From NCBI GenBank assembly GCA_030653385.1, contig JAURZM010000070.1, positions 1-64,000 on the forward strand: a stretch of DNA of 64,000 nt, in the 5' to 3' direction. The position numbers and the translations under genes were made by a program. The DNA is from Rubrivivax sp. (GTDB taxonomy: Bacteria > Pseudomonadota > Gammaproteobacteria > Burkholderiales > Burkholderiaceae_C). The notes under the pieces are model-generated. The model saw nothing but the letters and a program-made list of their open reading frames with translations, was not told the DNA's origin and did no database searches. Each line of letters begins with the position of its first letter. Position 1 is the stretch's first letter. Shown here piece by piece: positions 39,440 through 44,452 of this stretch.

Positions 39440-40708
39440 ATGGAAAGCCCTTCTCCGGCCAGCCCGACCGCCGGCCACATCCGCCTGACTTCGCACCCGG
39501 GCCAGGGCACGGCCACCGGCGCCTTGGCGCTGAACTGGGGCGCCGCCGACCCTCAGGTGCGTGGGCCGGTGGTGGGCACCACGGCCAACCGCAGCCAACG
39601 CAACGTCATCGGCACCCACAGTGGCAGTTATGGCGTCTACCGGGCGCTGGCCGTGGCCGCCGGCAACCTGGTGCGCGGCCACCGTGCTGACCTGACCAAC
39701 ACCGCGCCCACAGACATCGTGGGGCCTTATCCGCAGTGGCTGGACGCCCGCAAGATGGTGTCCATCGACCCCTGGGGCGCCAGCGTGCAAAGTGTGTTTG
39801 CCGAGCAACTGGCGATGGGCTACGACATCCGGCCAACGATTGCCGTCACCAAGGCTCACATCCATCTGCCCGAGATCAAGCAGGCCCTGGCCTTTCAGCG
39901 CCTGGCGGTGGACGGGCGGGTGCTGCTGGAAGATGCATCGGCCACCGTCACCAAGGTCGCCGTCGAACCCGTCTGGTGGCTGCCCGGCGTGGCCGCCCGT
40001 TTCAAGGTCAGCGAGGCCGAGCTGCGGCGCGCGCTGTTCGAAGAAACCGGCGGCATGTACCCCGAGCTGGTGACCCGCAGCGACCTGGAAGTTTTCCTGC
40101 CGCCCATCGGCGGCCAGACGCTTTATGTGTTCGGCGACATCCGCGACCTGGCCGACCCGAAGGTCACACTCACCGCGCGCGTGCACGACGAATGCAATGG
40201 CTCGGATGTCTTCGGCAGCGACATCTGCACCTGCAGGCCCTACCTGACCCACGCCATCGAAGAATGCATCCGCGGCGCACAGGCCGGTGGCGTGGGCCTC
40301 ATCGCCTACAGCCGCAAGGAAGGCCGCGCCCTGGGCGAAGTCACCAAGTTCCTGGTCTACAACGCGCGCAAGCGTCAATTGGGCGGCGACAGCGCCGACA
40401 AGTACTTCCTGCGCACCGAATGTGTGGCTGGCGTGCAGGACATGCGCTTCCAGGAATTGATGCCCGACGTGCTGCATTGGCTGGGCATCCGAAAAATCCA
40501 CCGACTGGTGAGCATGAGCAACGACAAATACGACGCCATCACGGGCAGTGGCATTGAAGTGGGCGAACGCGTGCCCATCCCCGACGCGCTGATCCCGGCC
40601 GACGCCAAGGTGGAGATGGAAGCCAAGATCGCCGCCGGCTATTTCACCGAAGGGCTGGTGCCCACCGACGTCGAGCTGGCGCTGGTCAAGGGGCGCGGCC
40701 TTGAGTGA
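39440..40708 (+). CDS. GTP cyclohydrolase II-like protein of the URC1 type
   Basis: 422 aa. The C-terminal half is GTP cyclohydrolase II-like: Zn ligands C-x10-C-x-C in HDECNGSDVFGSDICTC, then IAYSRKEGRALGEVTKF (in place of the standard Q-E-G-R-G motif), and KYDAITGSGIEVGERVPI. An N-terminal extension of about 170 residues (NVIGTHSGSYGVYRALAVAA; PYPQWLDARKMVSIDPWG) sets it apart from riboflavin RibA. Together with the URC4/DUF1688 gene that overlaps it by 8 bp and upp nearby, this is the URC1-like enzyme of reductive-independent uracil catabolism known from Lachancea kluyveri. The ATG at 39440 is only 82 bases from the divergent TRAP operon start. Confidence 0.88.
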   Translation: MESPSPASPTAGHIRLTSHPGQGTATGALALNWGAADPQVRGPVVGTTANRSQRNVIGTHSGSYGVYRALAVAAGNLVRGHRADLTNTAPTDIVGPYPQWLDARKMVSIDPWGASVQSVFAEQLAMGYDIRPTIAVTKAHIHLPEIKQALAFQRLAVDGRVLLEDASATVTKVAVEPVWWLPGVAARFKVSEAELRRALFEETGGMYPELVTRSDLEVFLPPIGGQTLYVFGDIRDLADPKVTLTARVHDECNGSDVFGSDICTCRPYLTHAIEECIRGAQAGGVGLIAYSRKEGRALGEVTKFLVYNARKRQLGGDSADKYFLRTECVAGVQDMRFQELMPDVLHWLGIRKIHRLVSMSNDKYDAITGSGIEVGERVPIPDALIPADAKVEMEAKIAAGYFTEGLVPTDVELALVKGRGLE

Positions 40709-42161
40709 AACCCTGAAGGCGCTGCTGCAGGACCTGCCGCCCTCGCTGCACCCGCTGGCCCGGCTGCACGACCCCGCCACCATCCGCGCGCGGTGTGCGG
40801 AGATCGTCAAGTCGGTCGACAGCGGCGTGAGCCCGAACTTTTCGCTGAACCGCGCCCGGCTGGACGACGTCGCCGACCGCGTGGCCGCGCTCACGCTGCG
40901 GCGCTTTCCCGACCTGGTGATCCCGTACCACAGCCGCTGGCGCCACTTCGAAGCCGGTGGCATCGACCGCAAGGGCGAAATGGATGCGGCGATGGCCGAC
41001 CGGCCGGTGGCCGAACAGGCCCGCGCCCGCTTCGACCTGACGGTGGTGAGCGTGCTGCTCGACGCTGGCGCCGGGCCCAGTTGGCGCTACACCGAACACC
41101 AGAAGCTGGCCGCTGCGGCATTGCCACAGGCCGCACCCGACGATTTGCTGGCGATGCTGGACCAGTCGGCGCGCACCGCCGCGCCCGCTGCGGCGGCATC
41201 GGCTGCCCAGGCTGAAACTTCACCCGAAACCCCTGCCGACACGCAAGCACCTGAACCGGCCGACGGAGGCAGCTACACCCGTTCAGAAGGCCTGGGGGTG
41301 GCCAGCTTCCGGGCTTTCATGGCGGGCGCCTTTTCTTCCAAACCCGGCGAACCCTGGCGGGCCGACGCCGCGGCCCTGCGCCACGTCGACGTGGCCGCGC
41401 TGCGGGCCATCTTCCAGAGCAACCCGAACAACCCGATGGTGGGCCTGGAAGGCCGCGCCGCGCTGCTGTCGCGCATGGGCGGTGTTCTGCAGGGCGAAGC
41501 CCAGCGCAGCGGCCATGAAGCCCGACCGGGCCTGATCTACGACCGCCTGACCGCCAACGGCGTGCGCACGCAGGTCAGCGCGACCGAGGTGCTGGGCGAG
41601 GTGCTGCGCAGCCTGTCGGGCATCTGGCCCAGCGGCAGCAAGGTGCAGGGCCTGCCGGGTGGCGACGTCTGGCCGCACCGCTGGGCGGGCGCAGTGGTGG
41701 GCGGGCCGCCGGGCTCGGCTGCACGCATGAACGACCGCACCACCGAAGGCTGGGTGCCCTTCCACAAGCTGAGCCAGTGGATGAGCTATTCGCTGCTCGA
41801 ACCTCTGCAGTGGGCCGGTGTCACCGTCACCGATCTCGATGCGCTGACCGGCCTGCCCGAGTACCGCAACGGCGGCCTGCTGATCGACGGCGGGGTCATC
41901 GTGCCGCGCGACCCGCGCCTCTTGGCCCGCACCTGGAAGCCGCAGGACGAGTTCATCATCGAATGGCGTGCGCTCACCGTGGTGCTGCTCGACGAACTGG
42001 CGGTGCGCGTGCGGCAGCGCCTGGGCAAGACGGCCGAAGAACTGCCGCTGGCCTGCATCCTGGAAGGTGGCACCTGGGCCGCCGGGCGCGAGATTGCCAA
42101 GGAATTGCGGCCCGACGGCGCACCGCCGCTGCGCATCGAAAGCGACGGCACGATTTTTTGA
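40701..42161 (+). CDS. URC4/urg3 family protein (DUF1688)
   Basis: 486 aa from TTG 40701, inside the end of the URC1-like gene (8-bp overlap). Matches the DUF1688 family: NLxRxxDVADxV-like NRARLDDVADRVAAL, IPYHSRWRHFEAGGIDR, TEGWVPFHKLSQWMSYSLLEPL and PEYRNGGLLIDGGVIVPRDP. Residues about 155-190 are an Ala/Pro/Glu-rich low-complexity insert, probably a flexible linker. URC4 is essential for the URC uracil pathway in yeast but its biochemical role is not established. The repeat copy B begins right after its TGA. Confidence 0.9.
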   Translation: MSETLKALLQDLPPSLHPLARLHDPATIRARCAEIVKSVDSGVSPNFSLNRARLDDVADRVAALTLRRFPDLVIPYHSRWRHFEAGGIDRKGEMDAAMADRPVAEQARARFDLTVVSVLLDAGAGPSWRYTEHQKLAAAALPQAAPDDLLAMLDQSARTAAPAAAASAAQAETSPETPADTQAPEPADGGSYTRSEGLGVASFRAFMAGAFSSKPGEPWRADAAALRHVDVAALRAIFQSNPNNPMVGLEGRAALLSRMGGVLQGEAQRSGHEARPGLIYDRLTANGVRTQVSATEVLGEVLRSLSGIWPSGSKVQGLPGGDVWPHRWAGAVVGGPPGSAARMNDRTTEGWVPFHKLSQWMSYSLLEPLQWAGVTVTDLDALTGLPEYRNGGLLIDGGVIVPRDPRLLARTWKPQDEFIIEWRALTVVLLDELAVRVRQRLGKTAEELPLACILEGGTWAAGREIAKELRPDGAPPLRIESDGTIF

Positions 42162-42249
42162 AGCCCCCGACCTCGCTGCGCTCGGTACCCCCCAAGGGGG
42201 CCGTCCCCCGACGGCCCGGCGAAGCCGGATCCGTGGGGGGAAGCTTGAT
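42162..42249. repeat. Dispersed palindromic repeat, copy B
   Basis: AGCCCCCGACCTCGCTGCGC onwards, three stacked hairpins (CCCCCC/GGGGG, GCCGTC/GACGGC, CCGGC/GCCGG), ending GTGGGGGGAAGCTTGA. It matches copy C at 44453-44542 throughout and copy A in part. It directly follows the URC4 stop. Its last bases provide the leader and purine-rich ribosome site of the XRE regulator, whose ATG at 42248 falls in the final GATG. Confidence 0.85.
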
Positions 42250-43697: not shown

Positions 43698-43816
43698 GTG
43701 GTGTTCCTTTTTTTTGGTGTGCTGTTGATGTGGCACCATCATTGCAAGCAGCCCACGCCGGGTCGATGACCTGAGAGGTCATGCCGCCGGCCCGCTATCG
43801 AAACAACGGAGTCCCC
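43698..43816. promoter_or_regulatory. Divergent control region of upp and the c-subunit-like operon
   Basis: 119 bases shared by two divergent starts. It holds a perfect inverted repeat ATGACCT-GAG-AGGTCAT at 43766-43782, about 35 bases before the upp start, which looks like an operator half-site pair. The GGAG ribosome site of upp is at about 43809. No clear -35/-10 boxes were identified. The XRE protein encoded 700 bases away is one candidate binder; the same palindrome was not found before the URC1-like gene. Confidence 0.5.
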
Positions 43817-44452
43817 ATGAACACGCCCGCCGTCCACGTCGTCACCCACCCGCTGGTGCAGCACAAGCTGACGCTGATGCGCCAGAAGGACCTGTCCACC
43901 AGCAGCTTCCGGCGCCTGCTGTACGAGCTGAGCATGTTGATGGCCTACGAGGTGACCCGCGACATGCCCACGCAGATGATCGAGATCGAAACGCCGCTCG
44001 AGAAGATGCAGTCGCCGGTGATCGAAGGCCGCAAGACGGTGTTCGTGGTCGTCATGCGCGCCGGCAGCGGTTTCCTGGACGGCATGCTGGAAGTGGTGCC
44101 GGGCGCACGTGTGGGCCACGTGGGCCTGTACCGCGACCCCAAGACGCTGGTGGCGGTGGAGTACTACTTCAAGATGCCGCACGACATGCACGAGCGTGAC
44201 GCCATCGTGCTGGACCCGATGCTGGCCACCGGCAACAGCGCGGTGGCGGCGGTGGAAAGGCTGAAGGAAACGAAGCCGAAGTCGATCCGCTTCGTGAGCC
44301 TGCTGGCCGCGCCCGAGGGCCTGAAGAAGTTCCACGAGCACCACCCCGACGTGCCGGTGTACACGGCGGCCATCGACCGCCAGCTCAACGAACACGGCTA
44401 CATCGTGCCGGGGCTGGGTGACGCGGGCGACCGCATCTTCGGCACGAAGTAG
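43817..44452 (+). CDS. upp: Uracil phosphoribosyltransferase
   Basis: 211 aa from ATG 43817 with GGAG upstream. Converts uracil plus PRPP to UMP. Motifs: [14 protein letters not shown], the PRPP loop in [13 protein letters not shown], and the C-terminal [17 protein letters not shown] uracil site. In the URC pathway the equivalent enzyme (URC6) makes the nucleotide from which degradation proceeds, so besides salvage it probably feeds the neighbouring URC1/URC4 enzymes. The TAG stop is followed at once by repeat copy C. Confidence 0.97.

Follow-up and report, generated by a model that had tools for sequence, protein, structure and literature searches.

A bacterial URC uracil-catabolism locus encoding a URC4 protein with a predicted Qng1-like fold

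What reaction does URC4 catalyse, and do the genes around it form a uracil-catabolism set? These questions are raised by a stretch of 64,000 nucleotides from Rubrivivax sp. (assembly GCA_030653385.1, contig JAURZM010000070.1, positions 1 to 64,000; hereafter the window), which the first-pass annotation had read as carrying a URC-type uracil catabolism locus. URC4 is the enzyme without an assigned mechanism in an alternative uracil route common to fungi and bacteria. Ribosylurea reportedly accumulated in urc4 mutants in a report of 2010. The locus is a typical example of the URC gene set already known for uracil catabolism, and we think it likely that it is such a set in which URC4 cleaves N-ribosylurea-5'-phosphate in the manner of the queuine salvage enzyme Qng1. 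The genes and motifs concerned are as follows.

39440..40708, plus strand: URC1, UTP-cyclohydrolase-type protein of 422 aa with GTP_CH_N and GTP_cyclohydro2 domains, ATG start
40701..42161, plus strand: URC4 (DUF1688), proposed N-ribosylurea-5'-phosphate hydrolase of 486 aa with a predicted Qng1/DUF2419-like fold, TTG start
41760..41777, plus strand: URC4 motif F354-H-K356-L-S-Q359, counterpart of Qng1 F-Y-K199-R-A-Q
41847..41867, plus strand: URC4 motif T383-G-L-P-E387-Y-R389, counterpart of Qng1 T-A-F-A-D231-Y-K
41961..41978, plus strand: URC4 motif E421-W-R423-A-L-T426, counterpart of Qng1 E-I-R-A-A-T
42248..43045, plus strand: XRE regulator with HTH_31 and an MLTR ligand-binding domain (MLTR_LBD), candidate local regulator
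43817..44452, plus strand: upp, uracil phosphoribosyltransferase (URC6 equivalent)

The gene calls of the annotation were borne out. Its N-terminally extended GTP cyclohydrolase II (GCHII) with a C-x10-C-x-C motif is URC1, which has PF12471 (GTP_CH_N) at residues 13-202, PF00925 at residues 230-379 and the zinc motif C-N-G-S-D-V-F-G-S-D-I-C-T-C. The DUF1688/URC4 protein matched PF07958 with an E value of 4.7e-136, and the 8-bp overlap claimed for it with URC1 (40701-40708) agrees with the coordinates, provided that the TTG at 40701 is its start. The XRE regulator and upp were likewise confirmed, by HTH_31 and MLTR_LBD matches and by PF14681 and PRK00129 (above the NCBIfam cut-off), respectively; no other upp copy in the assembly was seen to exceed the family cut-off.

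Subsequently, the distribution of the set was examined. A URC4 scan of genome contigs gave 209 pattern matches, and 162 of these stretches encoded a URC4 relative, so that such loci are not rare; the best 80 loci were retained for the locus counts. Viral contigs gave one pattern match and no URC4. URC1 was present in 75 of the 80 loci, directly upstream of URC4 every time, and upp was present in 72, directly downstream in 66; all three genes were adjacent in 62/80. Among the five loci without URC1, two (L042 and L060) start less than 40 bases from a contig end, and two others (L034 and L057) belong to genomes that have URC1 elsewhere. The stretch L001:7986-9461 encodes URC4 with neither URC1 nor upp at the locus. 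A relative of the XRE regulator was found by tblastn in 6/80 loci (L002, L005, L006, L010, L011, and L046). A search of the order to which the window belongs, covering 300 genomes with the window genome among them, placed URC4 at the Pfam cut-off and URC1 at the NCBIfam cut-off in the same 11 genomes, with neighbouring coordinates in 11/11. A twelfth genome (G636) showed a URC4 match of 17.6 bits alone, and in 97 further genomes the URC1 model was matched below its cut-off only, over the GCHII part among the matches listed. The first-pass interpretation is partly supported: its URC reading agrees with the synteny, with the co-occurrence of the genes and with neighbours suited to both predicted products (described below).

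The identity of URC1 was then considered. PDB entries 7ej3 and 7eev, deposited under the molecule name GTP cyclohydrolase II, aligned with URC1 over residues 9-421 with an E value of 3e-211. We take these entries to be the UTP cyclohydrolase described by Zhang et al. (ACS Catal 2021), an enzyme that is presumably URC1. In PMC12507026, the 2021 UTP cyclohydrolase paper is cited for the URC pathway. URC1 shares the zinc C-x10-C-x-C motif with the GTP cyclohydrolase II RibA, whereas the canonical RibA models scored far below their cut-offs on it (TIGR00505, 47.6 versus 205.85 bits; PRK00393, 58.5 versus 148).

The predicted fold of URC4 matched Qng1/DUF2419 over the whole domain, at about 20% identity. 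This link came out of comparing folds, of Pfam and of a profile comparison on a small scale, in which two alignments were used: A1 with 80 members, and A3 with the window URC4 and 11 other sequences. A PDB sequence search with URC4 alone or with the A1 profile returned no credible relative, Qng1 included. In A1, three Qng1-type motifs were found in the same order, nearly or fully invariant: K356, Q359, E387, R423, and T426 were present in 80/80 members and E421 in 79/80. Both positions mutated in the Qng1 entries 7u5a and 7ulc fall within the matched motifs; Lys199 of Qng1 is kept as Lys356, and Asp231 is replaced by Glu387, each identical in 80/80. According to their titles, the Qng1 entries in the PDB include ligand-bound and point-mutant structures, some holding a 5'-monophosphate and others queuosine. 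The true substrate of Qng1 is queuosine-5'-monophosphate. URC4 differs from Qng1 in having no queuosine link, and its expected leaving group is urea instead of queuine. No mention of a URC4-Qng1 link was found in the literature searched, which did not cover subscription papers. Residues 156-187 of the window URC4 form an Ala/Pro-rich, low-confidence insert that is missing in the other 11 sequences of A3.

From these features, the following pathway can be proposed. Upp would convert uracil and phosphoribosyl pyrophosphate (PRPP) to UMP, which housekeeping kinases would phosphorylate to UTP. URC1 would open the ring of UTP by hydrolysis to give malonate semialdehyde and an N-ribosylurea nucleotide; the substrate follows the UTP cyclohydrolase literature, and the exact products are those we would expect. 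URC4 would then act on N-ribosylurea-5'-phosphate in a Qng1-like manner, hydrolysing its C1'-N bond and releasing urea and ribose-5-phosphate; the fold and motifs of URC4 would put Glu387 in the place of Asp231 and Lys356 in that of Lys199. Urease would release ammonia from the urea, and malonate semialdehyde may be oxidised to acetyl-CoA or reduced to 3-hydroxypropionate. By analogy, the 5'-monophosphate is favoured as the form acted on by URC4, because some Qng1 structures hold a 5'-monophosphate and Upp makes a nucleotide. We regard it as likely, with slightly less confidence than the reading of the locus itself, that DUF1688/URC4 and DUF2419/Qng1 belong, as separate branches, to a single superfamily of hydrolases acting on the N-glycosidic bond of nucleoside 5'-monophosphates, and that URC4 completes the URC pathway by cleaving N-ribosylurea-5'-phosphate with the Glu387/Lys356 pair, ribose-5-phosphate being recycled to PRPP. 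The relationship would give the URC4 reaction a specific mechanism, and it suggests a broader role for the fold of queuine salvage, as a scaffold of nucleotide N-glycosidases.

Several points weigh against this reading. The hydrolase proposal for URC4 comes from sequence and a predicted model, and the residue at a key Qng1 position is changed from Asp to Glu. The probability given by hhalign for URC4 versus Qng1 was 38% with A1 and 46% with A3, and it was 13%, with a score of 31.3, when both profiles were swapped. The gathering score of PF10343 (25 bits) was not reached where scores were shown: L033 scored 21.2, and P0002, L050 and L064 were unmatched. In PMC9406330, EhDUF2419 of Entamoeba is reported to be active on the nucleoside queuosine. 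As to the gene set, a P0001 search found no URC1 in the L001 genome, and in the window upp is separated from URC1-URC4 by the XRE gene and two minus-strand open reading frames (ORFs). Because these two ORFs sit between the regulator and upp, upp may not be co-transcribed with URC1-URC4 here. Finally, the assembly (G000; 6.0 Mb, 93% complete, 7% contaminated) contains a complete-looking reductive pyrimidine cluster (L100, G000:C52:1-14000, G+C 68-69%), so URC need not be its sole uracil route.

One alternative concerns URC4 alone: the locus would be a true URC set, and URC4 would have merely inherited the Qng1 fold and would act otherwise than as an N-glycoside hydrolase, for example in hydrolysis of a ring or of the ureido chain. 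The replacement of Asp231 by Glu387 and the weak sequence link would fit this alternative, as would strongly conserved N-terminal stretches of URC4, such as I-P-x-H-S-R-W-x-H-F, that have no aligned counterpart in Qng1. On the other hand, the three Qng1-type motifs are kept in order and nearly or fully invariant. The first-pass annotation had described the chemistry of URC4 as unsolved, which applies to the mechanism but not to the step itself, ribosylurea to urea, already assigned to URC4 in PMC7530994. Such a step is an N-glycoside cleavage, the reaction class of the queuine salvage enzyme. We consider this alternative unlikely compared with Qng1-like hydrolysis.

The other alternative is that the URC1-like protein is the riboflavin GTP cyclohydrolase II of the organism, with URC4 an unrelated neighbour. 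The protein indeed exceeds the cut-off of NCBIfam NF005536, a family named GTP cyclohydrolase II (765 versus 403 bits), and besides URC1 the assembly yielded just one PF00925 domain (C62, L083), which is RibBA-like and lacks the zinc cysteines; for this latter reason the alternative is only weakened. Among the 11 URC genomes, a zinc-type RibA besides URC1 was shown by G258 alone. Against it, URC1 above the cut-off was confined to URC4-bearing genomes in the order sample (11/11), the canonical RibA models stayed far below cut-off as given above, and six genomes of the same family that are rated 100% complete and free of URC1 (G022, G085, G199, G210, G228, and G234) gave no RibA-like NF005536 match with a probe that was positive on E. 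coli. Since these six genomes show the same RibA gap, the gap is not generally filled by URC1. The riboflavin explanation appears very improbable. In 10/11 URC genomes, the only other GCHII-like domain was of the RibBA type without zinc cysteines (L083, L105-L113), the L113 copy (G589) being incomplete.

The neighbouring genes fit both predicted products of the URC pathway. An aldehyde dehydrogenase gene lies just upstream of URC1 in 13/80 loci; for four enzymes tested, the best NCBIfam match was CoA-acylating methylmalonate-semialdehyde dehydrogenase, one above the curated cut-off and three slightly below. A uridine-kinase-type gene was nearby in 15/80 loci (one member named) and a cytosine-deaminase-type gene downstream in 8/80 (two members named). 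These counts are rough, because they come from clustered self-called ORFs on loci often ended by contig edges. Upstream at L049 lie genes for thymidine phosphorylase, phosphopentomutase and adenosine deaminase. In Reyranella-like loci, the MAPEG and copper-chaperone genes nearby are presumably lineage-specific. For urea, a urease alpha subunit gene on C39 offers a means of degradation.

The locus resembles the URC pathway of Lachancea kluyveri in bringing together URC1, DUF1688/URC4 and uracil phosphoribosyltransferase genes and in having a gene for a urea-degrading enzyme in the assembly. In the yeast, urea is degraded by urea amidolyase (URC3,5; PMC7530994), whereas urea here probably passes to urease, the alpha subunit of which was found. 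Unlike in the yeast, the genes form a bacterial cluster, and the co-resident reductive cluster has its own dihydropyrimidine dehydrogenase subunit. This reductive (Pyd/Pre) pathway starts from the same compound with different enzymes and chemistry; L100 encodes PreA and dihydropyrimidinase above cut-off, a hydantoinase/carbamoylase-family amidase and a PreT-like protein of the glutamate-synthase small-subunit type, below all cut-offs shown. Two uracil routes thus seem to coexist in this assembly. Avoidance of the reductive route by URC genomes was unsupported: PreA was above cut-off in 3/11 URC genomes (G000, G341, and G535) versus 15/289 others. RutA of the Rut pathway was not found in the genome, the assembly being 93% complete.

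PF10343 matched 0/398 genomes of the phylum; no positive control matched, so this is no proof of absence, and plasmid members are known in the phylum. Queuosine-salvage-family genes lie on Azospira and Variovorax plasmids (L101:2443-3357, L102:292-1245, and L103:292-1245), and the Azospira gene adjoins a DUF4031 gene.

The remaining features around the locus are as follows.

38359..39516, minus strand: DctP, solute-binding protein of a TRAP transporter, in divergent orientation to URC1, possible importer; longest ORF, start probably further in
37857-38351: DctQ, after DctP
36542-37861: DctM, after DctP and DctQ
43046-43450, minus strand: ORF of 134 aa with no family assigned, between the XRE regulator and upp, adjoining the subunit c gene
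43455-43742, minus strand: match to F0F1 ATP synthase subunit c above the NCBIfam cut-off, between the regulator and upp

The TRAP transporter was rejected as a conserved URC partner: at E 1e-5, the 80 loci gave no DctQ or DctM match and, for DctP, one 45-bit piece in L004, over the URC1 start on the opposite strand. A promoter scan found no promoter, and terminator-like sites were at chance (3 observed versus 3.0 expected). A G+C-rich intergenic repeat with the core AAGCCGGNTCCGTGG and the end GGGAAGCTTGAT was found at about 42164-42247 and 44455-44541, one copy reaching into the XRE start codon and the other sitting after upp. Its core occurs twice in the window versus 0.01 expected from shuffles, and the same repeat is also present near the urease alpha gene (L085:1120-1134).
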